Virus record (IMG/VR): IMGVR_UViG_3300030389_003806
Coordinates: 1-44,049 of that record
DNA from: a virus
DNA length: 44,049 nucleotides
Direction: 5' to 3' (one strand)
The position numbers and the translations under genes are program-made. Below, one piece after another: positions 2,360 to 37,549 of this stretch (within the stretch, counting starts at the first letter, position 1; every line of letters starts with the position of its first letter). The notes under the pieces were generated by a model that ran no database searches, was not told where the DNA came from, and saw only the letters and a program-made list of their open reading frames with translations.

Positions 2360-4354
2360 ATGTTAGGATTATCAGCATCTCTTAGCAAAGCTTCAGTAAC
2401 ATTATTATCTTTTTTAAAAGATAACCTTAAAATATTCTTTGACTTTAAAAATACAGACCTTGAGTTTGTAGGTACAGGTAGCACTTTATTTGATGGTACT
2501 AATGACCAATTAGCAGGAACATTAACATTGTCAGGAGATAGGTCTTTTGCATTTTGGATAAAATCAACTGCAACTACTGGTAATATGAGAATATTACATT
2601 GTGAAACAGATTCAAGTGAATTTATAAATATTTCTATGAATGCAGGTGAAATAAATATGTATGATGGTACAAATAATCCTGAAACATCTCCAGAATATAA
2701 TGATGGAATTTGGCATCATGTTGCTATTACATGTGCTACTAATAATTGGACTATATATGTAGATGGAGTTTTAGTTTTAAATCATACTACATGGGTCAAT
2801 AGAGAAGCATCAAGTGATTCTTTTACCATAGGTGAAGGTACAGGTGCTAATGATTTTAATGGTAGTTTAAAAAACTTTGCAATATGGAATAGAGTTCTAT
2901 CAGCTTCTGAAGTGCAAAATATAATGTATAAAACATATAGCGATTTACAAGGAACAGAATTGACTCATTTAGTTAGCTGGTATGCAATGGAAGAAAGTAA
3001 AGATGGAGATACCTCTAAAATGATTGACTCTAAAAATCCTACAACAGTTGGATATGATTTGTCAATAACAAATGCTACTGTAGCAAATTTTGGAGCATCA
3101 GATGTGTATGGATTAGATACTCCAAGAAAGCCAAGAGGTGTAGATAATTCATCAGCAGCATTAGCAGACCAAATAGGTAGTGGTAGTGCAAGTTTTGCTC
3201 AAGGTGTTGGTGATTATATAGATTGTGGTACTAGTAGTAATTTTAATTTTTCTACAGCTGCTGGAGCATCGAATGACAAAGCTTTTAGTATATCTGCTTG
3301 GATATATAAAACAGAAGTTGGTGCTAGTTCAGTAATAGTTAGCAAATCAAATGCAAGTAATACAGATTTTTTATTTTATACAGATGCTAGTAATAATTTA
3401 GGACTTGCTTTATATACAGATACTTATACTGTTAATATTAATGGAAATGGCAATACAGTACTTGCAATAAATAAATGGTATCATGTTGCTTCAACTTATG
3501 ATGGGAGTGGTGCTATGAGTGGAGCTAAATTATATGTTAATGGAGTTCTTGAAACTATTACAACAACTACTTCAGGTACATATACAGGATTGAATCATGA
3601 AAGTACAACTAATTTAGCTATTGGTAATTGGCTTGATGTTACTAATCGTGAATTTGTTGGCAATTTAGCACAAGTAGGAATATGGGATACAGTATTAACA
3701 CAAGAACAAATACAAAGTATAAGCCAGAAAACATATTCAGAATTAACAGCAAATGATGGAAAAGATGACCTTGTATCTTGGTGGGGATTAGACTCAACTA
3801 TAGAGTCAAGTGGTACAGGTGCAAATTTTGTATATGATTTAAATAATACTACACTTGGAAGTGAAGAGCTTACAAATAATGGTTTTGAAAGTGGTCTAAC
3901 CCTTGCTGCAGTTTGGTATGCTATGGATGGTTGGGTAGATGAAACTTTAGATAGTGGTCAAAATGCAAATGCAACATTAGATACATCAAATGCTCGTACA
4001 GGTTCTAATTGTATGAAAATGGAACTTTTATCAGGAACTAGTTATCTTAATTATGGATTAACTTTAGCAGCAGGTGTATATAAATTTTCTCTTTTTGCTA
4101 AAGTTGGAGCTTCTCAAACAATAAGTAATATAAGAATAGGAGCAGCAACAGGTGTAAGAGGATTTACTCTTGGTGATAGTGGAACTATATCTTCAATTTC
4201 TGAAAATTATCAAGAGTTTACAGTATATATAAATAACCCTTCATCTCAAAATGTTCGCTTTACTATTAGTGCAGCAGGTACTAATAATCATTTCTTATTT
4301 ATAGATGACATAAGTATTAAAAAAGTAAATGGTAATCCAGGAGAATTATTATAA
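2360..4354 (+). CDS. LamG/concanavalin-like lectin-fold virion protein, 664 aa
   Basis: Two LamG-type jelly-roll domains are visible, about residues 43-190 and 272-450. Each has the typical FDG start, a WHHVAIT or WYHVAST strand, a YVDG or YVNG turn, and an 'IWNRVLS...EV' or 'IWDTVLTQEQI' end. A third beta-rich region (about 500-660) resembles a carbohydrate-binding module. Such domains bind glycans, so this is probably a surface protein for host attachment or capsid decoration. There is no signal peptide, as expected for a virion part. The stop overlaps the next start (TAATG), coupling it to an even larger relative. The N-terminal 40 residues are hydrophobic and helical and may anchor it to the particle. 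Confidence 0.75.
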   Translation: MLGLSASLSKASVTLLSFLKDNLKIFFDFKNTDLEFVGTGSTLFDGTNDQLAGTLTLSGDRSFAFWIKSTATTGNMRILHCETDSSEFINISMNAGEINMYDGTNNPETSPEYNDGIWHHVAITCATNNWTIYVDGVLVLNHTTWVNREASSDSFTIGEGTGANDFNGSLKNFAIWNRVLSASEVQNIMYKTYSDLQGTELTHLVSWYAMEESKDGDTSKMIDSKNPTTVGYDLSITNATVANFGASDVYGLDTPRKPRGVDNSSAALADQIGSGSASFAQGVGDYIDCGTSSNFNFSTAAGASNDKAFSISAWIYKTEVGASSVIVSKSNASNTDFLFYTDASNNLGLALYTDTYTVNINGNGNTVLAINKWYHVASTYDGSGAMSGAKLYVNGVLETITTTTSGTYTGLNHESTTNLAIGNWLDVTNREFVGNLAQVGIWDTVLTQEQIQSISQKTYSELTANDGKDDLVSWWGLDSTIESSGTGANFVYDLNNTTLGSEELTNNGFESGLTLAAVWYAMDGWVDETLDSGQNANATLDTSNARTGSNCMKMELLSGTSYLNYGLTLAAGVYKFSLFAKVGASQTISNIRIGAATGVRGFTLGDSGTISSISENYQEFTVYINNPSSQNVRFTISAAGTNNHFLFIDDISIKKVNGNPGELL

Positions 4355-7293
4355 TGGCAACATCAATAGTATCAAATAGTACAGCAGCAACATTTGGAAA
4401 CTCTCCACAGAAAACAGGAGAGCCTGTAGATAGATTAAGTATATATTCAGGTAAGGCATTAGAGTTTGATGGTGTAAGTGATTTTATAGAACCTAAACAA
4501 GGTTCAACTTATTGGCAGCCTAGCACTCATGATAAAATGACATTTGCTGTTTGGATTAAAACTACAGGTGGAGGAGATATATTTGAAGGAGGTGGAAGAA
4601 ATTATAATGCATTTAGAATATATGGACAAAGCAATGTTTTAAAAGTTGAGTTAAATTCTACAGGGATTCATTCAGATACAACTATAATAGATGATGGAGT
4701 TTGGCATCGTATAGTTGTTTCTTTTGATAAAGATGCAAGTTCTAATCAGGTTAATATATATGTAGATGGAAAGTTATCTACATCACATACAAATACATCA
4801 GCTATTAGTGGATTAAATAATAGCAATTCTGTTCATTATCCTATGATAGGTGCTAATTCAAGTGCTTTGTTAGATAATGTATGGGGTGGGTTAATGGCAG
4901 ATTTTCAATATTGGACAGAAGCTTGGGATTTAGAAGATGTTACATATGATTATTTGCATCCTGAAAAATTAATAACAAGCAATAGCTCTGCTACATCTAA
5001 TATAACATCTTCAAGTTTAGAGCTTTGGTATCCTATGAATGATACAGGAATAACTAATCCACAAACAGTTGTATTTGATGGTGCTAATACAGGTGGATTA
5101 GAAGCAACTATAACTCCACATTTAAATGATGATGGTAATTTTAATAATAATAATTGGAGTACTTCAGCAGGTGATACAGGAGATTGGACAGGTCATACTT
5201 CTTCACAAACATCTATGACAATAACTAAAAATGGTACAGATACAGGAGATTTAAGATTTTATATGATGGCATCTTATAATTCAAATATGTCATCAGATTT
5301 AGAGACAGGAGCATATTATAAACTTACATATAGTGTTTCTACAACCTCAAGCATACCAAGTTGGCAATTTAGGTTAAATCATGGAGGTTCAACTACTACA
5401 AAATTATATGAAGGTACAAATAATGTTATATATTTTACAACAGAATCAGCCAGTGTTTATATACAAGTTAGAAGTAATACTAATGGAGAAAACTTTACAT
5501 TAAGTAATATAAGTTTAGAAAAAGTTAAACAGCCTTTTCATGGTACTACTACTTTTTTTGGTAATGATAAATTAGGAGGTAATGGTGGCTTTGATGCAAC
5601 TTCTAATTGGTCTGTAGTTTCAGGTAGTGTAGGTACTGAATGGACAATAAATGATTCAAGCAATTCAAAAGCTGTGCATAATACATCAAATGCTAATACA
5701 TTAAGATATACAGGAAGTTCAGGTGATTTAGTAAGTGGTACTACATATCAAGTAGACTTTACTATAGCAGATAGAACAGCAGGTAGTCTTACTTTCGCTT
5801 TAGGTGGTGGTTCTGCAGGTTCTTCACAAACTGCATCAGGTAGTATTGAACTTACTGCAGGAGGTACTAGCAATAGAATAATAGATATAAATCCTACAAG
5901 TGATTTTGATGGCTCTATAGATAGTGTTACTGTAAAAGAGATAGGCATAGCAACAGGATGGACAGAAGCAGACCAACAACAAACTATACCACAAACAGCA
6001 TTTATGGATGGTTGTGTTAAAAATATTTTTGATGGGACAGATGATGTTGTAACAACAACAGCAACTGTTTCAAATTTAAGTTTAGGAACAGGTTCAGTAT
6101 CAGCATCGGCATGGGTAATATGGACAGAAGACAAAGGATCTTATGCAAAAATAATAGGTTTTGACAATGTTACTAACAAAGGTTTTGGCATAATTAGTGA
6201 TTCAATTAACAATAAAATTCGTGCATATTCTGGAGATGGCTCTGCAACTAAATATGCAGATTTAGATTCCCCAACACATAATATATGGTATCATTTAGTA
6301 GCTACTTATGATTCATCTGATAAAAAAACAAGATTATATGTGAATGGTTCTTTGCAAGATACATCAGCTGCTAATAGTGGAGATATTAGCTATTACACTT
6401 CAGGAAGTAGTGAATATTTAACATTAGGAGAAATGAATTATCATGGTTATCATTTTTATGGTTTTATAGATGAAGCTAATATGTGGAATAAAGCTTTATC
6501 TTTATCTGAAGTGCAAGAATTGTATAATAATGGTATTCCATTTGATGCTAGAGAACATTCGGCATCTCCTTCAACTGGCACAGATTATCTTATAGGATAT
6601 TGGAGGAATAATCATTTAACATCAGCAGGTACTTGGGAAGATTTATCTACTAATGATAATCATGGCACAGTTACAAGTTTAGATGACTCTATATTTTTCC
6701 AACAAGGAGTAACAGCTAATTTATGCACACAAGGCTATTCTAATAATATAGTTCATCCTAGTAAAGGTTCTATACATTTCTTAGGAAAAGAATATGCACA
6801 ATTTCCAGGAGAAAGAATTATTAGTTTAGATGGTGACTTTACTATAGAATTTTGGTTTAAAAAAACACAGATATATGCAACTGTTTTGACTGATAGTATG
6901 CTACTTGGTTCAGGGAGTAATCAAATAAGAATACCTAATAGTGTTACAAGTGGCAAAATGGCTACTACTTATCTTCGTGATGCTTCAGCAACAGCTAGTT
7001 ATACAATGACTATAGATTCTAATAATAGAAAATCTATATATGAATGGAGTCATGTTGTAATAACAAGAGAATCAGGAACTATAAAAACATATATAGATAC
7101 AGTTACTACAAATAATACAACTATATCTGCTACAGGTCAAATGAATATAACAACTATTGGTGCATTAAGTGTAGCTTCTAATTATATGTATAAAGGTTTT
7201 TTAGATGAGTTTAGAGTATATGATAGAGCATTAACAGCATCAGAAATAACAAAGAATTATAAACATGGCAAAAGCCAACACAAAAATAGTTAG
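4354..7293 (+). CDS. LamG/concanavalin-like lectin-fold virion protein, 979 aa
   Basis: A paralogue-like partner of the preceding gene with three LamG-type domains, near residues 33-205, 555-725 and 800-970, each with FDG or FLG entry, a WHRIVVSF, WYHLVATY or WSHVVIT strand and YVDG/YVNG-type turns. Between domains 1 and 2 (about 250-530) are two beta-sandwich stretches like carbohydrate-binding modules ('NNWSTSAGDTGDWT', 'SNWSVVSGSVG'). The likely role is binding host or environmental polysaccharide from the virion surface. Repeated LamG units within and between the two genes give long stretches of similar DNA that could drive domain shuffling. A 128-aa reading frame antisense to it is a compositional shadow. 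Confidence 0.75.
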   Translation: MATSIVSNSTAATFGNSPQKTGEPVDRLSIYSGKALEFDGVSDFIEPKQGSTYWQPSTHDKMTFAVWIKTTGGGDIFEGGGRNYNAFRIYGQSNVLKVELNSTGIHSDTTIIDDGVWHRIVVSFDKDASSNQVNIYVDGKLSTSHTNTSAISGLNNSNSVHYPMIGANSSALLDNVWGGLMADFQYWTEAWDLEDVTYDYLHPEKLITSNSSATSNITSSSLELWYPMNDTGITNPQTVVFDGANTGGLEATITPHLNDDGNFNNNNWSTSAGDTGDWTGHTSSQTSMTITKNGTDTGDLRFYMMASYNSNMSSDLETGAYYKLTYSVSTTSSIPSWQFRLNHGGSTTTKLYEGTNNVIYFTTESASVYIQVRSNTNGENFTLSNISLEKVKQPFHGTTTFFGNDKLGGNGGFDATSNWSVVSGSVGTEWTINDSSNSKAVHNTSNANTLRYTGSSGDLVSGTTYQVDFTIADRTAGSLTFALGGGSAGSSQTASGSIELTAGGTSNRIIDINPTSDFDGSIDSVTVKEIGIATGWTEADQQQTIPQTAFMDGCVKNIFDGTDDVVTTTATVSNLSLGTGSVSASAWVIWTEDKGSYAKIIGFDNVTNKGFGIISDSINNKIRAYSGDGSATKYADLDSPTHNIWYHLVATYDSSDKKTRLYVNGSLQDTSAANSGDISYYTSGSSEYLTLGEMNYHGYHFYGFIDEANMWNKALSLSEVQELYNNGIPFDAREHSASPSTGTDYLIGYWRNNHLTSAGTWEDLSTNDNHGTVTSLDDSIFFQQGVTANLCTQGYSNNIVHPSKGSIHFLGKEYAQFPGERIISLDGDFTIEFWFKKTQIYATVLTDSMLLGSGSNQIRIPNSVTSGKMATTYLRDASATASYTMTIDSNNRKSIYEWSHVVITRESGTIKTYIDTVTTNNTTISATGQMNITTIGALSVASNYMYKGFLDEFRVYDRALTASEITKNYKHGKSQHKNS

Positions 7294-30149: not shown

Positions 30150-30416
30150 TTAAAAAGGAATATCGTCTTTGAATGTTTCAGGATTATCTATTAAATCAGG
30201 TTTGCTCGTAGTGTCCTTTTTAAAGCTTTCAGCTTCTTCCTTTGTCGTTACCTTTATACTTTTATACTCTTTACCAGCCTTGCTTACATTATTCCATGCA
30301 GACAATCTGTACTCTTCATTTTTTATAACTATAGTTCCTGTAAAATCAGGTTGTGTCTCTTTTGTTTTTTCATTTACAAACAAAACACCTTTCATATTAT
30401 TGTCATAATCAGACAT
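30150..30416 (-). CDS. Small SSB-like single-strand DNA-binding protein
   Basis: An 88-aa protein. The core has TGTIVIKNEEYRLSAWNNV and GKEYKSIKV, a compact beta-rich layout like very small OB-fold or DUF736-type proteins. The last residues are DDIPF, exactly the acidic hook by which bacterial SSB recruits partner proteins. This strongly hints at an SSB function, although the body is much shorter than usual (about 110-180 aa). AAGGAG seven bases before the ATG supports the start. It overlaps rusA by 8 nt and lies in the same operon as RecT, exonuclease and helicase loader. Confidence 0.6.
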   Translation of the reverse strand: MSDYDNNMKGVLFVNEKTKETQPDFTGTIVIKNEEYRLSAWNNVSKAGKEYKSIKVTTKEEAESFKKDTTSKPDLIDNPETFKDDIPF

Positions 30417-30828
30417 CTATCATCTCCTTTATTATTATTATGGTTTGTGGGTCTGTTGAATATATTTTAGTAGCTTCAACATGCACTACTTGCGAATCAT
30501 CTTTGTACATAATACCATTTAGACAATCCATTACAAATTTTATATAATTATCTATATCAGGTCTAGACTTACAATAGTATGGCACACCCTTTTTCAATTG
30601 ATCGCTGTATTTGCCTGTTCTGTAGTGGTTTTTAGGTCTAGGTATATAAAAGTATAGCTGCAGATGTATATTAAAATTAAAAGGCAATTTAGGCTTCTTT
30701 TCTATTTTGCTTATAAAATCATCTTTTTCTAGTTTAGATGGGTCATAGGTAAAACCTTTTTTAGTATGCCTATGTCTCTTTTGAGCTATAGGCTTACCTG
30801 GAATAATTAATGAAAGAGAGTCCACCAA
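30409..30828 (-). CDS. rusA: RusA-like Holliday junction resolvase
   Basis: A 139-aa RusA-family endonuclease that cuts four-way DNA junctions. The opening IPGKPIAQKRHRHTKKG is the family's basic substrate-contacting start. The catalytic segment is SRPDIDNYIKFVMDCLNG followed by YKDDSQVVHVEATK, with the conserved aspartates in PDIDN and KDDSQ and the Lys in EATK. Length fits RusA. The start is TTG at 30828 or GTG at 30825, and neither has a clear Shine-Dalgarno site. An AAAAATGGGT sequence that also occurs near the recombinase gene lies just upstream (30831-30840, minus strand). Confidence 0.85.
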   Translation of the reverse strand: MVDSLSLIIPGKPIAQKRHRHTKKGFTYDPSKLEKDDFISKIEKKPKLPFNFNIHLQLYFYIPRPKNHYRTGKYSDQLKKGVPYYCKSRPDIDNYIKFVMDCLNGIMYKDDSQVVHVEATKIYSTDPQTIIIIKEMIDV

Positions 30829-30848
30829 TGACCCATTTTTACTTACAC

Positions 30849-31784
30849 TTATAATAGGTTGTTCAACCTTTCTAATACTTCTTTCTTTGTAGGCTCAGAA
30901 AAATCATTAGATATAGTTTTTTTTCCTGTTACTTTCAGTAGCATATCTTCTGCCTGTTGACCATTGCCATTCATTTTAATTTCTGACATTAAACCTTCAG
31001 CTGTATCTTTAAAAGAATAATCTATATCCTGGTCCAATACTACAGGATGTACTATCTCTTCAGCCTCCTGGTCTATGATTTTATCAGAGTTACTAACAGC
31101 ACTTGACAATATCAAACTTTCTTTAGTTGTAGACTTAGGCAGCTGCTTGTCTATCAATTGTCTTAACACTGTTTTTTTAGCCATTGCATCAAAGTTACTC
31201 TTCCATGGACTTGAACTACTATTATATCCCTTAGCAAACTTTTTCATATGATCTATAATTTCTTGTTTTGACATCAAGCATAATGTGTCACCACCATTGT
31301 TAAGTTTAGCATATGCATAGTATGCTATAGGCTCTCCTCTTTCCCCTGTGACTAATGGTTTATGATAAAAGTTTGGATTGTATCCTTTAACATATTCATA
31401 ATCATCATTTTCACATATTACATCTGCATCTATCATTTTAATCATACCACTATTCCAAGCTAATTTTAACATACCTCTGTACTCAATTAAAAATTGTACA
31501 TCTTTACCATATGGAACAAGAGCTGCTTCCATCAATGGACTGTTTGGTTCTAAACCAAATCTTGCAGATTCCATCATAGCTTTAATTAATGATTTAGGAT
31601 TGCATTGTTGTAATTTGTTGTTACTTTGCACTGCTATCAAACAAGCATTTACAAACTGCTGTGTATTGCTGTTCATTGGTAAAACAGATTGAAAAGCATC
31701 AGACCTTGACTTTATCATACCATAAATATCATTGGTTTTTTGTGTCAAAGCTTTTGTTTTCTTTTTTGACTCTTTGATATCCAT
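30849..31784 (-). CDS. recT: RecT single-strand annealing protein
   Basis: A 311-aa RecT-family annealase. It has a helical start and the family block 'NPKSLIKAMMESARFGLEPN', followed by AALVPYGKDVQFLIEYRGML, GYNPNFYHKPL, AYAKLNNGGD and SPWKSNFDAMAKKTVLRQL, all in canonical order. The last 80 residues are variable and acidic. RecT binds single strands and anneals complementary DNA, and is normally paired with a 5'-3' exonuclease. Here that is the YqaJ-family gene immediately upstream, whose stop overlaps this ATG (TAATG). It probably supports recombination-dependent replication and genome end joining. Confidence 0.92.
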   Translation of the reverse strand: MDIKESKKKTKALTQKTNDIYGMIKSRSDAFQSVLPMNSNTQQFVNACLIAVQSNNKLQQCNPKSLIKAMMESARFGLEPNSPLMEAALVPYGKDVQFLIEYRGMLKLAWNSGMIKMIDADVICENDDYEYVKGYNPNFYHKPLVTGERGEPIAYYAYAKLNNGGDTLCLMSKQEIIDHMKKFAKGYNSSSSPWKSNFDAMAKKTVLRQLIDKQLPKSTTKESLILSSAVSNSDKIIDQEAEEIVHPVVLDQDIDYSFKDTAEGLMSEIKMNGNGQQAEDMLLKVTGKKTISNDFSEPTKKEVLERLNNLL

Positions 31785-32704
31785 TATCTTTCCTTTATTT
31801 TTATTATAAATCTTCTTTGACCATCTACCTCTTGCATGTATTCCTGGTGCAATTCAGGATGATCTTTTCTAAATTGCTTCATATCAAACTTTTTTCTAGG
31901 TTTAGTTTTTTTCCATGTAGCTAAATCCAAACCATTGCTTGATAACAACTCACTGCTCTCCATTTTTTTCATTAGTTTTAGTTGTGTTTTTTCTATGTCA
32001 TCTTGCAATCTTTTTTTTGTTTTACTTAATTGATTTAAACTATTTATATCTTCTAATTCATCATTGGATGCTTCACATATTTTATCAGGATCAACTTGAT
32101 TAAATACTTTTCTTGCATCTCTTGTAGACCTGGGAATTGGTGGTACTTTTTTACTTACATTGTTTAACCAAAAATCTATTAACTCTTGTCTCATATTAGT
32201 TATAAACTCTTCATCCCTGTAATATTTTTCTACAAAAAATTCTTTTGTATGATTTAAAACCAATCCACAAAAGTATATATATGGTGTTTGTGTTATCATC
32301 ATCTGACCTTGTATTTGACAATAATAATAATCAGGTATCTCACCATCCCAAAACGACATTGTCTTATACTCTACAGCAACTTTTTCTTTTGTTACAAATC
32401 CATCTAAATTAGCTGTTAAAAAACTGTATCTACGATCAAACCTAATTTTATTATCATTAAATACTTTTAGTCCTGTTTCCTCTTCAAATAACTTTTTGAT
32501 AATAGGCTCCAGGTCTCTTCCCAATCTCATGTGCAAGTTATCTTCTACAGGTTCTAAACCATTTACTTTTTCAAAGTATAAATCTACATTAGATTTGTAT
32601 GGATTATGACCCAGGACTGCACTTACATCACTCATACCTATAGAATGTTGTCTCTCTTTGAGCCATACTTCATATGGCATCTCTCTTGTATTTATGTATT
32701 TCAT
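31784..32704 (-). CDS. YqaJ-family recombination exonuclease
   Basis: A lambda-exonuclease-fold protein of 306 aa that makes 3' single-strand tails for RecT. Motifs: RQHSIGMSDVSAVLGHNPYK (family opening), GRDLEPIIKKLFEEETG, LTANLDGFV (catalytic Asp), VAVEYKTMS (E-x-K) and YYYCQIQGQMMIT, all characteristic of YqaJ. The C-terminal 90 residues include a coiled segment and a basic TWKKTKPRKKFDM tail. I chose the ATG at 32704, which has AAGGAG five bases upstream. A GTG at 32710 is also possible and would overlap the previous stop. Confidence 0.9.
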   Translation of the reverse strand: MKYINTREMPYEVWLKERQHSIGMSDVSAVLGHNPYKSNVDLYFEKVNGLEPVEDNLHMRLGRDLEPIIKKLFEEETGLKVFNDNKIRFDRRYSFLTANLDGFVTKEKVAVEYKTMSFWDGEIPDYYYCQIQGQMMITQTPYIYFCGLVLNHTKEFFVEKYYRDEEFITNMRQELIDFWLNNVSKKVPPIPRSTRDARKVFNQVDPDKICEASNDELEDINSLNQLSKTKKRLQDDIEKTQLKLMKKMESSELLSSNGLDLATWKKTKPRKKFDMKQFRKDHPELHQEYMQEVDGQRRFIIKIKER

Positions 32705-32706
32705 CT

Positions 32707-33132
32707 TCACTCCTTTGTCTCTCTATATATTTCTAAACATTGCTCTAAATTAAACTCTTCATCACCATTTAAATTAAAATATTTTTTATCTACTACACAA
32801 CTAAATGGTATGTATATAACTTTTTTTAATGGTATAAATACCAGTGCTAAAATATCTACATCATATGTGTTGTAATGTTTTTCTTTGTACACAGTTTTTT
32901 CACAACTTCTCATTTTTCTAGTAGTTCTGCATATTCTAAATTGATATGAATTTTTATTTCTTTTTTTACTTGTAGATTTTACTTGCACTTTAATAACATC
33001 GCCATTATTTACTAATCCTAAATCAAAACTCATATTACCATTAATTTCAAAACATTCATAGCCTTGCAATGCAATATCATACATAGCAAGGTACTCACCA
33101 GTCTTGCCTAATGATCTACTTATTTTCCCCAA
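32707..33132 (-). CDS. Second PD-(D/E)XK-like nuclease or group I endonuclease-like protein
   Basis: About 141 aa from the TTG at 33132 (AAGGA five bases upstream). An ATG at 33174 would add 14 residues overlapping the previous gene. Features: SLGKTGEYLAMYDIALQGY (conserved Glu of the first helix), MSFDLGLVNNGDVIKVQVKS (Asp and Q-x-K catalytic strand), then YDVDILALVFIPLKKVIYIP. This helix-Asp-QxK pattern recalls the small PD-(D/E)XK proteins related to group I intron endonucleases. Lying directly upstream of the exonuclease, it may handle recombination intermediates, but mobile-endonuclease ancestry is equally possible. Confidence 0.6.
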   Translation of the reverse strand: MGKISRSLGKTGEYLAMYDIALQGYECFEINGNMSFDLGLVNNGDVIKVQVKSTSKKRNKNSYQFRICRTTRKMRSCEKTVYKEKHYNTYDVDILALVFIPLKKVIYIPFSCVVDKKYFNLNGDEEFNLEQCLEIYRETKE

Positions 33133-33364
33133 TCTTTTCCTTGCATTTAGGACATTGTTTTTGCTCCATACCATAAGTAGGCAATGTGCCTTTTTTATAA
33201 TAGTGATATGGGTTTTTAATATCAGCAGATTTAACTTCCCAACACTCCTCACAATCAGGACACAGTTTTGGAAACTTATAATAGTTAATCACATCATCTG
33301 CTCTTTTAAGTCTATTGTCATTTGGATTGCGACTACAAAAAGCTTCATACCACCATCCATTCAT
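33116..33364 (-). CDS. Zinc-finger protein, 82 aa
   Basis: Two CxxC pairs are visible: CPDCEECWEV and, 30 residues later, CPKCKEKIGE. These would form one zinc ribbon. The N-terminus has MNGWWYEAFCSRNPND, with the NPND...RADDV wording of small phage DNA-associated proteins. The ATG at 33364 was chosen because AAGGA lies seven bases upstream. An ATG six codons earlier overlaps the preceding gene. It overlaps the next nuclease gene by 17 nt. A DNA-binding or recombination accessory role is plausible. Confidence 0.6.
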   Translation of the reverse strand: MNGWWYEAFCSRNPNDNRLKRADDVINYYKFPKLCPDCEECWEVKSADIKNPYHYYKKGTLPTYGMEQKQCPKCKEKIGENK

Positions 33365-33368
33365 AAGC

Positions 33369-33947
33369 TTATCCTTCTTCATCAGGCACCACCATTGCTA
33401 CTTGATGTTTATGTGCTACATTTGATGTGCTTTGACCTGTAAACAATCTTACTTTGTTCATCATTAAATTCATCAATGTTATAAAATTTTTCATCTCACT
33501 AGGCTTATCTATCATCTTGACATAATCTGCCTGATTCAATGCCTGTAGCATTCTTATAAGCTCAGTCATCAATGCACTAGATACATATTTCATACCTTCA
33601 GACACTAATGCAGATTGTTGTGCCTGTAATTCATCTTTATTTTTCCACCAATCCATTAAAGTATTTCTATGGATGCCTAACATTTTAGATATAGTAGTAA
33701 ATCTAGGAACAAGATCACCATCAGTATTTTCTTTTTGCATAGTTTCCATAAACATTAATGCAAAATGTTTTTCATCTATTCTATATTGACCTTTCTTTTC
33801 AAATAAAGGCTCATATGACAATGCATTTTCATCAGGCAATACTACACCTAATGATTTAGCCTGTGCTTTTGCTTTTTCTTTATCCTGATTAACACCATTA
33901 AGTTTTTGTATTTGTTTATTTAATAATGCTTTTTGCTCTTTATTCAT
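33369..33947 (-). CDS. Helix-turn-helix protein, candidate small terminase subunit
   Basis: A 192-aa protein with an N-terminal charged coil, a helix-turn-helix near residues 85-110 (FTTISKMLGIHRNTLMDWWK), a long helical middle (SALMTELIRMLQALNQADYV...LMNLMMNKVRLFTG) and a short acidic tail. HTH plus helical oligomerisation region plus tail is the layout of small terminase subunits, and none is found beside the large terminase at 38598. A transcription regulator is the alternative. Its ATG overlaps the stop of the recombinase gene (ATGA). No catalytic motif. Confidence 0.45.
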   Translation of the reverse strand: MNKEQKALLNKQIQKLNGVNQDKEKAKAQAKSLGVVLPDENALSYEPLFEKKGQYRIDEKHFALMFMETMQKENTDGDLVPRFTTISKMLGIHRNTLMDWWKNKDELQAQQSALVSEGMKYVSSALMTELIRMLQALNQADYVKMIDKPSEMKNFITLMNLMMNKVRLFTGQSTSNVAHKHQVAMVVPDEEG

Positions 33948-34504
33948 AAAGAATATTCCTCATAAGCTGAATCCATCATATCCTGGTCTATGCCAATATA
34001 TCTTAATGTAACTGCAGGGTTTTGATGGTTTAACATTTTCATAACAAGCGATATATTGTTTGTAGATTTATAAATAAAATATGCTAAAGTTTTTCTCATA
34101 GAATGTGTACCAAAATTCTCTACACCAACAGCATTAGCACCTTTTTTTAATACTCTCCATGCATTGGTCCTGTCTATGTGCTTATGTTTGTTTTTCATGC
34201 TATAAAATAAATAATCATTTCTTGATAAATGCTTTGAGTGAACATACTTAATAATTTCTTCCTGAATCAAGCTATTTAATTTAATTCTTTTATGTTTACC
34301 TGTTTTTTTCTCATGCAAATTTAAATAAGTTCTAATATTTCCATCATCATCAAACAATTCATCATACTGCAATGTAATTATGTCTGAAATTCTCAAAATA
34401 GTATTTATACCAATCCTGAATAACAATGCATCTCTTGGATTTTTCTTTTCTAAAAACTTAACCATTTTATTGATTAATGCTTTACTTTTAATCGGCTCTA
34501 CCAT
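33944..34504 (-). CDS. Tyrosine recombinase, catalytic domain only
   Basis: A 186-aa integrase/Xer-type recombinase. Catalytic residues are visible in order: Arg in LRISDIITLQYDEL, Lys in the KKTGKHKRIKL beta turn, His-x-x-Arg in GTHSMRKTLAYF, His in MKMLNHQNPAV, and the nucleophile Tyr in TLRYIGID. The N-terminal core-binding and arm-binding domains of full integrases (300-400 aa) are missing or extremely short. It may resolve genome dimers, invert a local segment or integrate with help. GAGAGGAAGTT precedes the ATG. A 13-bp inverted repeat flanking a 10-bp palindrome lies just upstream (34521-34584). Confidence 0.83.
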   Translation of the reverse strand: MVEPIKSKALINKMVKFLEKKNPRDALLFRIGINTILRISDIITLQYDELFDDDGNIRTYLNLHEKKTGKHKRIKLNSLIQEEIIKYVHSKHLSRNDYLFYSMKNKHKHIDRTNAWRVLKKGANAVGVENFGTHSMRKTLAYFIYKSTNNISLVMKMLNHQNPAVTLRYIGIDQDMMDSAYEEYSL

Positions 34505-34621: not shown

Positions 34622-34816
34622 TTAATTATTATAATCGCAAGGATCATCCCATGCAATATTCTCTGAGTCTAAACATATCCATGAACCTACAGAATTACAA
34701 TCTTCGCATTCATACTCTACTTCTGTAAATCCAAAGCTATTGCTTCTACCTATTTCTTTAAAGCTATCATGATTACATTTATCATGTTTGCATAAACTAT
34801 TATTTTCTAATTTCAT
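34622..34816 (-). CDS. Small Cys-rich (zinc-binding) protein, 64 aa
   Basis: Cysteines occur as CKHDKC near the start and YECEDCNSVGSW in the middle, giving a possible zinc site, followed by an acidic C-terminus (DDPCDYNN). The start at 34816 has GAGAGG five bases upstream and lies 20 nt after the predicted cut site of the hammerhead ribozyme at 34831-34887. The processed message would therefore begin with a short leader carrying the ribosome binding site. Function unknown. Confidence 0.6.
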   Translation of the reverse strand: MKLENNSLCKHDKCNHDSFKEIGRSNSFGFTEVEYECEDCNSVGSWICLDSENIAWDDPCDYNN

Positions 34817-34830
34817 TATTACCTCTCATT

Positions 34831-34887
34831 GTCTTATATAGGGTGACTAGCACCCTATTTCATCCATTTAGGAATCATCAGTAAGAC
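34831..34887 (-). ncRNA. Hammerhead ribozyme, type I (second in the operon)
   Basis: On the minus strand, in order: stem I GTCTTA (34887-34882); core CTGATGA (34881-34875); stem II TTCC-TAAAT-GGAT (34874-34862); core GAA (34861-34859); stem III ATAGGGTG (34858-34851), loop CTAGT, CACCCTAT (34845-34838); cleavage base A (34837); stem I return TAAGAC (34836-34831). Stem III (8 bp) and stem I (6 bp) are perfect. The 15.1-16.1 A-U pair is present. Stem II is short with a U-U mismatch at its base, the only weak point. Predicted cut is between 34837 and 34836. Confidence 0.85.
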
Positions 34888-34903
34888 TTACCGAACATTA
34901 ATC

Positions 34904-35113
34904 TCAGGTCTGTCTGTATTCAGATGGTGTTTCAACCTGTCTTTTTGCTTGTTCATTAAACTCTTTAACTAAACTATTCATTTTAACAGTGTCTATAGAG
35001 TTAATCTTAAAAACAAATCCATCTTCAGAAGGTATTCTAATTACAGGATCATTTGTATAATATAATCCTAAATTAAAATGTTCTAAAAATTTGTGCAATA
35101 TTGATAATAACAT
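34904..35113 (-). CDS. Hypothetical protein, 69 aa
   Basis: The product starts MLLSILHKFLEHFNLGLYYT, an amphipathic helix, followed by a small beta part (IRIPSEDGFVFKINSID) and a basic helical tail (LVKEFNEQAKRQVE). It starts inside the stop of a small membrane-protein gene (TAATG) with AGGAG in range, and ends 16 nt before the second hammerhead ribozyme. No family recognised. Confidence 0.6.
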   Translation of the reverse strand: MLLSILHKFLEHFNLGLYYTNDPVIRIPSEDGFVFKINSIDTVKMNSLVKEFNEQAKRQVETPSEYRQT

Positions 35114-35262
35114 TATTTATTCTCCTGTTTATAAAACATTGTTCCATCATCTAAAATATAACATATCCACCAACAAACCAAACCTATTATTGGCATTATA
35201 AATGGCTCTCCAAATGCCAGGAAAAACCCTATAATAAACAATGTGTATTTAAATAATTTCAT
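35113..35262 (-). CDS. Small membrane protein, 49 aa
   Basis: Read directly from the minus strand: ATG at 35262 (overlapping the preceding TAA as TAATG), TAA at 35115-35113. Nearly the whole first 35 residues are hydrophobic (KLFKYTLFIIGFFLAFGEPF, then IIGLVCWWICYIL), enough for one or two membrane helices joined at Gly-Glu-Pro. GAAAGGAG lies seven bases upstream. Both ends use the one-base overlap typical of this operon, which supports it as a gene. Its function is unknown; superinfection exclusion is one possibility. Confidence 0.6.
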   Translation of the reverse strand: MKLFKYTLFIIGFFLAFGEPFIMPIIGLVCWWICYILDDGTMFYKQENK

Positions 35263-35564
35263 TACTTGCTCCTTTCTATTATTTCTGATTCAGGAAAATG
35301 CATAGGCTTTGTTAACAAATATCTAATATGATTCATCACTTGATGTTTGCTTCTCCAACCTTTAACACCTCGTATTGTTTTTTCTGTACTGCTAGACATA
35401 ATCTCAAATGTAGTTATACCATTACCATACAATCCTGAGTTATGATCACCACCTACAATAGATATCCATTGACCATTTGGAAGCGATATATATGCTTGTA
35501 CAGCAAAAATATCTTTATAGCTACACATACTATGCTTTTCAAACTTAATGTCTTTAAATCGCAT
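35262..35564 (-). CDS. Hypothetical phage protein, 100 aa
   Basis: Contains FEKHSMCSYKDIFAVQAYIS and NGQWISIVGGDHNSGLYGNG. This beta-rich pattern (short strand, glycine-rich 'GGDHN..LYG' turn, then EIMSS) occurs in small accessory proteins of many phages without known role. The C-terminal half is helical and basic (GWRSKHQVMNHIRYL). It is coupled by one-base overlaps to the genes on both sides. No function assigned. Confidence 0.65.
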   Translation of the reverse strand: MRFKDIKFEKHSMCSYKDIFAVQAYISLPNGQWISIVGGDHNSGLYGNGITTFEIMSSSTEKTIRGVKGWRSKHQVMNHIRYLLTKPMHFPESEIIERSK

Positions 35565-35809
35565 TATTTAACCTCACTTTCAGTTATTATTCCCTGATCA
35601 ATTAAAGATTTTGCTGTTCTGCTAAACCATCCTTGTAAACTCCAACATAAGCCTGTATCTAAGAGATACTGCCAAGCTCTTATTACAAGCTCCTCTGTAG
35701 GACAATCTACACCAACCATAGCAAAGTCACCTTCAGCAATCATTGTTGCTTTAAATGGATCCATCTCAAAATCATTTTGTTCCTCAATGTGATTTTTTAT
35801 TATTGCCAT
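35564..35809 (-). CDS. Hypothetical phage protein with W-Q-L-LDTG motif, 81 aa (DUF7417-like)
   Basis: The motif AWQYLLDTGLCWSLQGWFSR followed by TAKSLIDQGIITE is highly recognisable from small phage proteins of unknown function (a DUF7417-like family, from memory). The conserved 'LDTG..W.LQG.F.R.A..LI..G' spans residues 45-75. The first 25 residues are charged. It is linked to its neighbours by one-base stop/start overlaps, so this set of small proteins is translated as a unit from the message segment between the two hammerhead ribozymes. Confidence 0.68.
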   Translation of the reverse strand: MAIIKNHIEEQNDFEMDPFKATMIAEGDFAMVGVDCPTEELVIRAWQYLLDTGLCWSLQGWFSRTAKSLIDQGIITESEVK

Positions 35810-36276
35810 TATTTATCCTCCATTACATTTATTACATCATCAATTAAATGTTCAGCAATCTCTTCCCAATTAATGATATCTAAAACATAATTAAGTATAT
35901 CAGCAATTGCATTTGATTGAGTTAGATTAACATTTAACTCTTCATCAGCATTAAACCAACTTTTAATATAATCAGCTAATTCAATTAAAATTGAATTATA
36001 TTCTGTTGGTGCATCTGCAATCATTCCTGATAATTTATCATGAAAATGCTTATATATTACCTGATCATTATTAATCCATGACATGATTTGCCAAGTTGGT
36101 TTATTAGTATAACCATTGTATTTATTAGGCTTTACTTTATTAAGTAATCCCTGAGTATATTCTAAGGCTTCAATCCATCCCTTAATATTCTCATCCTGAC
36201 AAGCACCATCATCATATGATTTTCTTTCACATTCTAAAGTATTTTGTACTTCCATTATTACATCTGATAGTTTCAT
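35809..36276 (-). CDS. Hypothetical early protein with NGYTN-W motif, 155 aa
   Basis: I chose the ATG at 36276, with AAAGG about seven bases upstream. A second ATG at 36291 would add five residues. The segment YNGYTNKPTWQIMSWINNDQ resembles the 'NGWTNYETWLV.LW' opening of a common phage protein family (DUF7249-like) of unknown role. The rest is acidic and helical. Its leader begins at the predicted cut site of the first hammerhead ribozyme, so its message would start 35 nt before this ATG. Confidence 0.65.
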   Translation of the reverse strand: MKLSDVIMEVQNTLECERKSYDDGACQDENIKGWIEALEYTQGLLNKVKPNKYNGYTNKPTWQIMSWINNDQVIYKHFHDKLSGMIADAPTEYNSILIELADYIKSWFNADEELNVNLTQSNAIADILNYVLDIINWEEIAEHLIDDVINVMEDK

Positions 36277-36306
36277 AACTATTCCTTTCATTATTTATTT
36301 TAAGTT

Positions 36307-36363
36307 AACCTGACACCTCATAAAGAGGTGTTTCGCTAGAATCTCACTAGCTCATCAGAGGTT
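36307..36363 (-). ncRNA. Hammerhead ribozyme, type I (first in the operon)
   Basis: On the minus strand, in order: stem I AACCT (36363-36359); core CTGATGA (36358-36352); stem II GCTAG, loop TGAGATT, CTAGC (36351-36335); core GAA (36334-36332); stem III ACACCTC, loop TTTAT, GAGGTGT (36331-36313); cleavage base C (36312); stem I return AGGTT (36311-36307). All three stems are perfectly paired (5, 5 and 7 bp), the cut triplet is GUC and the A15.1-U16.1 pair is present. The element starts immediately after the stop codon of the 230-aa gene. Predicted cut is between 36312 and 36311. Confidence 0.92.
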
Positions 36364-37056
36364 TTATATACAACCCTCTTCAACTTCATCAGCATATTTA
36401 CATGCATTGTTGTATAGCTTATGATCCCATGTTTGGATTGCATCTACAAAACTATTAAACCAATCTAATTGCATTTTTAACTTTCTAACTTCTTCTGTAT
36501 CTAATGGGTTATTGATAGTTCCCTGAGCATCTTCTTCTGTTAATACATCATTATCAGTATATAACTCAACACCGATTATTTCATCTGATTTAGGCTTAGT
36601 ATAGATATGTTCACCATCTATCTCAGGATTCATATTATCTCTGATATCATCTTCAGACTTAGCATTAACAATATAATAACAATATTTGATTTCTTTCATT
36701 GTTACCTTGTATTGCTTAGTTTTACAATCAGGACAATCCTCAATAGATTCTTTCATTGACATTAAATCAAATGATTCTTTCTTACCTGTATCTTCACATA
36801 CACCACAATCATAATCATTATCTTTCTTATCGTAATAATCATTACTAATCCAATTATCAGGATTAAATGGATTAATATCTTTACTGTTGAGATATCTAGC
36901 TGTATATATCTTGTAATCACCTGTAACAGCTGTAGACATACCCTCAAGCAAATCATCTAGGTTTTCTAGTGCATCTTCTTTATACTCCCAACCTGATACA
37001 ATTAACCAATCACAAGTATCTACAACAAAGTATTTATATTCTCTATTTATTTTCAT
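36364..37056 (-). CDS. First early leftward protein, 230 aa, with zinc-knuckle
   Basis: The first gene of the leftward operon. Acidic and Asp/Asn/Tyr-rich, with a central zinc-ribbon-like region: CGVCEDTGKKES, then CPDCKTKQYKV about 25 residues later. The N-terminus (REYKYFVVDTCDWLIVSGWE) and the C-terminal helix (RKLKMQLDWFNSFVDAIQTW) have no match I know. A zinc-containing acidic early protein could act on host transcription or DNA binding, but this is speculation. The ATG at 37056 has AAAGG upstream. The stop abuts the first hammerhead ribozyme with no spacer. Confidence 0.65.
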   Translation of the reverse strand: MKINREYKYFVVDTCDWLIVSGWEYKEDALENLDDLLEGMSTAVTGDYKIYTARYLNSKDINPFNPDNWISNDYYDKKDNDYDCGVCEDTGKKESFDLMSMKESIEDCPDCKTKQYKVTMKEIKYCYYIVNAKSEDDIRDNMNPEIDGEHIYTKPKSDEIIGVELYTDNDVLTEEDAQGTINNPLDTEEVRKLKMQLDWFNSFVDAIQTWDHKLYNNACKYADEVEEGCI

Positions 37057-37099
37057 TATTATAACCTTTCATTTATTATTTAATAATTAACCTACAACC

Positions 37100-37129
37100 A
37101 ATATAAGGTTTACAAAGTTTACAATGCAA
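37100..37129 (-). promoter_or_regulatory. Leftward early promoter with TGCAAC box
   Basis: Minus-strand TTGCAT (37129-37124) and TATATT (37105-37100) are 18 bp apart, a good sigma70-like pair about 45 nt before the first leftward gene. The -35 element overlaps a TGCAAC box (37125-37130), so whatever binds the box would control this promoter. Confidence 0.5.
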
Positions 37130-37160
37130 CATTTATTTTGATTTAAATAAAAAAGTTGCA
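37125..37160. promoter_or_regulatory. Inverted TGCAAC pair (candidate operator, left)
   Basis: TGCAAC at 37125-37130 and its inverse GTTGCA at 37155-37160 are separated by 24 bp of AT-rich sequence that is itself partly symmetrical. The same hexamer pair recurs at 37304-37329 across the second promoter. Confidence 0.5.
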
Positions 37161-37292
37161 ATATTTATTTAGGCTACACATTATATATGTAAGGGAGAAA
37201 AAAAATATATCTATTGCCTTGGGATCAGGTAATTTTATTTGAAAATATAAGTTCATATAAATATGCATTGTGCTATATTATTGGACCCTGAT

Positions 37293-37329
37293 TTGACAGT
37301 TTATGCAACAAAATATGTATTATGTTGCA
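37293..37329 (+). promoter_or_regulatory. Rightward promoter overlapped by TGCAACA inverted repeat
   Basis: TTGACA (37293-37298) is followed after 19 bp by TATTAT (37318-37323). The perfect 7-bp inverted repeat TGCAACA (37304-37310) / TGTTGCA (37323-37329) covers the spacer and the -10. A protein bound there would block the promoter, so this looks like a classic repressor operator. The 19-bp spacing is slightly long. Confidence 0.5.
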
Positions 37330-37340
37330 CAGGTCTCCTC

Positions 37341-37409
37341 GAGCCATAAATATTAAGGTATTTGAGCCATAAAATTAATGCTCGATCCACCCTGTTTTTG
37401 GGTCGACCC
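37341..37409. repeat. Direct repeats and a palindrome in the control region
   Basis: GAGCCATAAA occurs at 37341-37350 and 37364-37373, 23 bp apart (about two helical turns). The GC-rich palindrome GGGTCGACCC is at 37400-37409. These lie in a gene-free stretch between the two rightward promoter candidates and stand out against the AT-rich background. They may be protein-binding sites or part of a recombination site. The rest of 37161-37292 is AT-rich without a clear element. Confidence 0.45.
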
Positions 37410-37456
37410 CCTCGTTATGTTATTTATGTAGCTCTTACACAAAACAGAAAAAATAA

Positions 37457-37488
37457 TTGGTTGACATAATTAACCAAATAAGTTTAAT
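37457..37488 (+). promoter_or_regulatory. Rightward promoter with TTGGTT inverted repeat
   Basis: TTGACA (37461-37466), 16 bp, TTTAAT (37483-37488) is a good sigma70-like promoter directly before the rightward block. TTGGTT (37457-37462) and AACCAA (37472-37477) form an inverted repeat over the -35 and spacer, a second candidate operator different from TGCAACA. A start site near 37495 would put the AAAGAGAGGA site at the head of the message. Confidence 0.55.
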
Positions 37489-37549
37489 TTACAAATATCA
37501 AAAGAGAGGATATTTATATGATTTATGAGAGTGGAGACAAGGAGAGTAT

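Follow-up and report, generated by a model that had tools for sequence, protein, structure and literature searches.

Two type I hammerhead ribozymes in the gaps of a phage early operon and their probable role in transcript segmentation

Background

Why should a densely packed phage operon open two gaps between its early genes and place a self-cleaving ribozyme in each? The question is raised by a single viral contig, IMGVR_UViG_3300030389_003806, of 44,049 nt (the window), with gene calls taken from open frames and gene names from Pfam and PHROGs. A preliminary description of this DNA proposed that two ribozymes split one early transcript into three messages, and knew of no described phage operon organised in this way. 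Such arrays were, in fact, described by Perreault et al. (2011), who found hammerhead ribozymes (HHRs) clustered around single genes or blocks of genes in prophages and proposed that they process long transcripts; in that study three arrangements cleaved in vitro, and the Agrobacterium arrangement was also shown to cleave in E. coli (PMC3088659). De la Pena et al. (2017) reported HHRs lying close together around small non-conserved ORFs, often phage-linked, and treated their prokaryotic role as an open question (PMC6155905); self-cleaving ribozymes are also enriched in the vicinity of genes of Mu-like phages and of one another (PMC10085705). The pair in the window is therefore a new example of a known but poorly understood phage habit, and the claim of novelty fails.

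Results

Operon layout

The genes of the leftward early operon mostly overlap by 1-4 nt (Table 1). The preliminary description, which had the operon tightly overlapped everywhere except at the ribozymes, was nearly right but missed two additional gaps of 117 and 76 nt. The 230-aa protein encoded by the first segment has no match in Pfam or PHROG, and two of the five small genes behind HHR1 match families of unknown function (phrog_871, together with DUF7249 below its cut-off, and phrog_3908/DUF7417).

Table 1. Features of the early region of the window
Feature	Position	Strand	Description	Basis
Leftward early operon	37056 to about 28065	minus	mostly 1-4 nt overlaps between genes	
230-aa gene, first segment of the operon	36364..37056	minus	two CxxC pairs	
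Operon gap, 72 nt	36363-36292		complete type I hammerhead inside (HHR1)	
HHR1, type I hammerhead ribozyme	36307..36363	minus	cut 36312/36311	descriptor and hold-out covariance model
Present/absent unit, HHR1 and three genes	35263..36363	minus	missing in L011 exactly between stop codon and start codon	
Five overlapping small genes between HHR1 and HHR2	34904..36291	minus	lower coordinates 35809, 35564, 35262, 35113, 34904	
Operon gap, 87 nt	34903-34817		complete type I hammerhead inside (HHR2)	
Upstream hairpin CGGUAAG/CUUACUG	34878..34894	minus	rival pairing to that of HHR2 stem I and core	folds of nested fragments
HHR2, type I hammerhead ribozyme	34831..34887	minus	cut 34837/34836	descriptor and hold-out covariance model
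64-aa cysteine-containing gene, first behind HHR2	34622..34816	minus		
Operon gap, 117 nt	34621-34505	minus	precedes integrase	
Downstream block	30409..34504	minus	mini-integrase, HTH-like protein, PD-(D/E)XK nuclease, YqaJ exonuclease, RecT, RusA	Pfam
Operon gap, 76 nt	28365-28290			

The 186-aa tyrosine recombinase (33944-34504, minus strand) resembles integrase families in their catalytic part alone (positions 52-235 of 301 in phrog_216). The gap preceding it contains a long hairpin, in which AAAUGGGUGGUAG pairs with CUAUCACCCAUUU, plus an inner hairpin, without a match in Rfam. Because the contig L011 keeps a hairpin at the equivalent site despite different letters (GUGGGGUAGG with CCUGCCCCAC), this structured integrase leader may be conserved. 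At the other end, about 490 nt of non-coding DNA (37057-37549) separate the operon from the rightward genes; they contain short repeats (ATGGCTC, GGTCGACC) and may harbour divergent promoters.

Two type I hammerheads

Both ribozymes were recovered by the descriptor and by the hold-out covariance model exactly at the places, on the strand and with the cut sites first proposed for them. HHR1 begins 1 nt past the UAA stop of the 230-aa gene and consists of AACCU, the core CUGAUGA, GCUAG and CUAGC around the loop UGAGAUU, GAA, ACACCUC and GAGGUGU around UUUAU, and a C, with the predicted cut ahead of AGGUU. HHR2 has the corresponding elements GUCUUA, CUGAUGA, UUCC and GGAU around UAAAU, GAA, AUAGGGUG and CACCCUAU around CUAGU, and an A, with the cut ahead of UAAGAC. 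The catalytic core is complete in both (CUGAUGA and GAAA, with UC or UA ahead of the cut), as are three stems with stem I open, which places them in type I; the stems measure 5, 5 and 7 bp plus a core pair in HHR1 (5, 6 and 7 by the descriptor) and 6, 3 and 8 bp in HHR2. The leader lengths given in the preliminary description also hold: the HHR1 cut lies 20 nt ahead of ATG 36291 and 35 nt ahead of ATG 36276, of which the second is the likelier start on account of an upstream AAAGGA, and the HHR2 cut lies 20 nt ahead of ATG 34816.

The hammerhead is the minimum free energy fold of HHR1 (z = -3.0). HHR2 has a U.U mismatch at 10.1:11.1, adjoining the core; among 151 distinct type I HHRs, eight have A.A or U.U at that pair. 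Stem-loop II of HHR2 is identical in the contig L129, and its loop UAAAU fits the UNAAU of many relatives. In folds of nested fragments, a hairpin just upstream competes with HHR2 at similar energy (-17.8 vs -17.0 kcal/mol), so that cutting of HHR2 could be slower or conditional; in this folding model the hairpin possibly acts as a switch for HHR2 cutting.

The loose core (CTGATGA followed by GAAA) occurs at six places in the window, with 1.2 expected, and once three stems are required only HHR1 and HHR2 are left on the two strands scanned. A permissive descriptor gave 11 matches in 200 shuffles of the window, or 0.055 per window, as opposed to the two found. The covariance model, for which 14 HHRs from other phages and no window sequence were used, detects HHR2 with an E-value of 2.2e-16 and HHR1 with 3e-5, the next match in the 44 kb being at 0.59. 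Across 73 distinct aligned sequences, covariation reaches 0.666 and the paired fraction of structure cells 97.9%, against 0.146 and 68% in shuffled controls, double, compensatory changes occur at 16 of 18 pairs, and the relatives retain the catalytic core; the alignment was fitted to the model and is thereby biased toward the structure, but its distance to the controls is very large nonetheless. Sliding the stem partners abolishes the covariation signal. This evidence from sequence and covariation confirms HHR1 and HHR2 as real type I hammerheads.

Rfam 15 at gathering scores detects neither ribozyme in the window. The top Rfam matches of HHR1, the RAGATH-1 hammerhead (RF03152) and Hammerhead_3 (RF00008), share its catalytic core but score only 22.8 and 22.1 bits against gathering scores of 56.3 and 48.5, and HHR1 is accordingly not filed under either. 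The type I HHRs of L034, L028, L040, L025, L159 and L261 are likewise undetected by Rfam 15 at gathering scores, whereas a small model built from relatives detects such short-stem phage hammerheads, mostly with E below 1e-10. The Rfam models therefore have a gap here, and type I phage hammerheads are probably under-annotated, given that Rfam 15 misses those checked.

Relatives with and without the ribozymes

A terminase search identified 77 viral contigs. Among 24 terminase relatives searched whole, the model found one to three HHRs in each of ten, or 11 carriers counting a type II HHR found in L088 by the descriptor, and the HHR strand in these relatives is that of the early operon. DNA comparison of the window with isolated phages gave no match; the terminases of isolated phages are all less than 60% identical to that of the window, the best-covering rows being at about 27-30%.

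The preliminary description suggested checking related contigs for conservation of the pair; it is absent even from the closest one, L011, whose terminase is 98% identical. In L011, a plain 36-nt spacer occupies the position of HHR2 between homologues of genes 34904-35113 and 34622-34816, so HHR2 has been gained or lost without gene change. At the other site, the homologues of 36364-37056 and 35113-35262 abut as stop-start TAATG, and HHR1 is missing together with three genes. This with/without pair, with a closest relative free of both ribozymes, and the type II hammerheads of the more distant relative L086 are what is new here with respect to the open-access literature checked. The covariance model detects no HHR in any of L009-L012, and no support was found for another known ribozyme taking the place of the hammerhead in HHR-free relatives. 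Searches with the protein of gene 34904-35113 matched only the contig of L011, those with the protein of 34622-34816 gave no match, and remote homologues of the 35809-36291 product have no HHRs in the flanks retrieved.

A more distant relative, L086, encodes two Rfam-confirmed type II hammerheads (4291-4360 and 5151-5211) with two genes between them, one of 68 aa and the other homologous to the window gene 35809-36291, the gene that sits directly behind HHR1. Streptomyces phage phiRKBJ001 possesses two type II hammerheads 923 nt apart (L334:579-631 and 1502-1553). The type II hammerheads (RF02276) of both resemble the pair in the window in being tandem, on one strand and placed from stop to start, but differ in their permuted topology with stem II open. 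The presence of different hammerhead topologies in comparable places argues that cutting, and not one particular sequence, is the selected trait. In Streptomyces phage R4, a type II-like element in the gp80-gp79 interval (L335, about 1500-1565) was read by eye and rejected by the descriptor.

Placement across phage hammerheads

Scanning IMG/VR with the commonest stem I and core gave at least 120 stretches; among the matches listed, 90 of 120 viral stretches contain complete HHRs, and the equivalent pattern in cellular genomes yielded mostly chance cores (4 of 119 confirmed). The stop of the upstream frame lies near or inside stem I in 126 of 139 distinct HHRs, mostly from viral contigs (median -6 nt, the TAA of GGTTAA), a statistic valid for one subfamily, since most of these HHRs were chosen by one stem I sequence. 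An open-frame ATG follows within 80 nt of the cut in 122 of the 139 (median 22, interquartile range 20-26), and 112 have both stop and ATG on their own strand, compared with 10% of random same-strand places and 4% of antisense ones; selection of many loci by a single stem I sequence biases part of these figures. Of 27 comparisons between loci that share both flanking genes, not all independent, 26 show the HHR retained, the exception being the window against L011.

Examples of isolated phages that carry such HHRs are Cellulophaga phi19:3, Agrobacterium OLIVR1 and Streptomyces phiRKBJ001. The largest array, eight type I HHRs in 5.8 kb, is found in L261 (JAAGZR010000219.1), a contig binned as Aliivibrio. 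It has nearly one HHR per gene, and several of these HHRs precede a shared AT-rich leader.

Discussion

We put the probability at roughly three in four that the two HHRs cut one early-operon RNA into three co-transcriptionally and thus separate the fates of its gene blocks, a reading drawn from sequence comparison. The leftward operon would be transcribed as a single RNA, and each HHR would fold during transcription, once roughly 57 nt have been made, and then cut. Three pieces would result, namely the 230-aa gene, the block of five small genes and the integrase-recombination block. Each upstream piece would end in the stable stem III hairpin with a 2',3'-cyclic phosphate, and each downstream piece would begin with a 5'-OH, followed by a leader of 20-35 nt with a Shine-Dalgarno sequence. 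In bacterial RNA decay, 5'-OH ends resist pyrophosphohydrolase-triggered decay and exonucleases are slowed by 3' hairpins, and we infer that the pieces would differ in stability or translation and that neighbouring gene blocks would gain separate fates. Where the stop codon lies in stem I or against it, the ribosome that terminates there would sit on the ribozyme, and translation may thereby delay the cut.

Segmentation is favoured by the stop-ribozyme-start order of 112 of the 139 HHRs, by promoter signal that does not exceed chance, and by the type II pair of L086 around a shared gene. It is weakened by the absence of both ribozymes from the same genes in L011, and by the core-adjacent U.U and competing hairpin of HHR2. 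Programmed processing of one transcript, as put forward in the preliminary description, thus stands as the best-supported interpretation, but the claim of novelty falls, the pair is not conserved even in the nearest relative, and protection by the 5'-OH and separate stability or translation of the pieces are conjectural.

The HHRs could instead chiefly mark or serve the exchange of gene cassettes, as a portable boundary that travels with accessory genes, either because they supply short homology used by the phage RecT/YqaJ recombination or because a self-cut leader allows a newcomer to be expressed anywhere in an operon; in that case the purpose of RNA processing would be tolerance of cassettes and not a fixed gene dosage. 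HHR1 and its three genes do form a clean present/absent unit between the window and L011, and where only one flank is conserved the HHR is kept at that flank in 63 of 110 one-sided matches. The genes downstream of HHRs are mostly unrelated to one another (146 examined, the largest family having 7 members), which also rejects a tie between the HHR and one particular downstream gene. Synteny breaks at 81% of HHR junctions, but HHR-free junctions within 1 kb break often as well (66% of tight and 47% of gap-matched ones) and the intervals overlap, so these figures suggest a boundary role but do not demonstrate it. A stronger version, with HHRs as recombination breakpoints, was abandoned because their excess over nearby junctions is within error. 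HHR2, moreover, came or went without any gene change, and overall we consider cassette exchange as the chief role rather unlikely.

It is very improbable that the two cuts free a 1475-nt RNA that is then circularised or spliced to another piece in the manner of retrozymes, perhaps by a host RtcB ligase. Like retrozymes and other hammerhead circular RNAs, the window has two same-orientation HHRs bounding a segment, and stem I strands compatible with re-closure are found in 49 of 63 neighbouring HHR pairs, most of these loci having been chosen by a shared stem I. Unlike in retrozymes, the segment here is a protein operon whose ends are unable to re-close through HHR2: the segment begins with AGGUU, which does not match the HHR2 stem I strand (AGGTT vs TCTTA), and circularisation through HHR2 is rejected for this pair since the ends cannot re-form the ribozyme stem. 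No RNA ligase family was detected in 20 proteins scanned from the early region and its neighbourhood, and Perreault et al. detected no spliced or circular products when they searched for them (PMC3088659).

Equally slight is the chance that the ribozymes leave expression unchanged, being carried along as decayed or neutral elements; the ribozyme-free L011 and the mismatch adjoining the HHR2 core would fit such a fate, but the intact cores, the compensatory stem changes and the retention of HHRs at junctions with both flanks conserved speak against it. Separate promoters or terminators in the gaps, with incidental ribozymes, deserve hardly any weight, because, although the host might use unusual promoters, neither ribozyme gap contains a promoter-like or terminator-like site and the regional promoter count (40) equals chance (38.9).

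In a more tentative reading, one that we regard as doubtful, phage hammerheads might be portable insulators of small accessory genes: cassettes would bring their own self-cut boundary and be expressed from any operon with neighbours undisturbed, and ribosome release at the stop in or next to stem I would gate the cut.

The window shares with the clusters of Perreault et al. several same-orientation HHRs placed around individual genes or short runs of small genes that are unrelated, the proposed processing of long phage transcripts, and flanked genes of inconstant identity, as seen across the 146 downstream genes. It differs in belonging to another phage lineage, in that both mates are type I with a short stem I of 5-6 bp, and in having a ribozyme-free relative at hand. 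The placement rules, with a stop in or against stem I, an ATG about 22 nt past the cut, HHRs kept where both neighbours are kept, and types I and II in comparable places, favour a generic role in mRNA segmentation. The natural with/without pair, together with the isolated phages that carry the motif, makes the question of the role of prokaryotic hammerheads testable.
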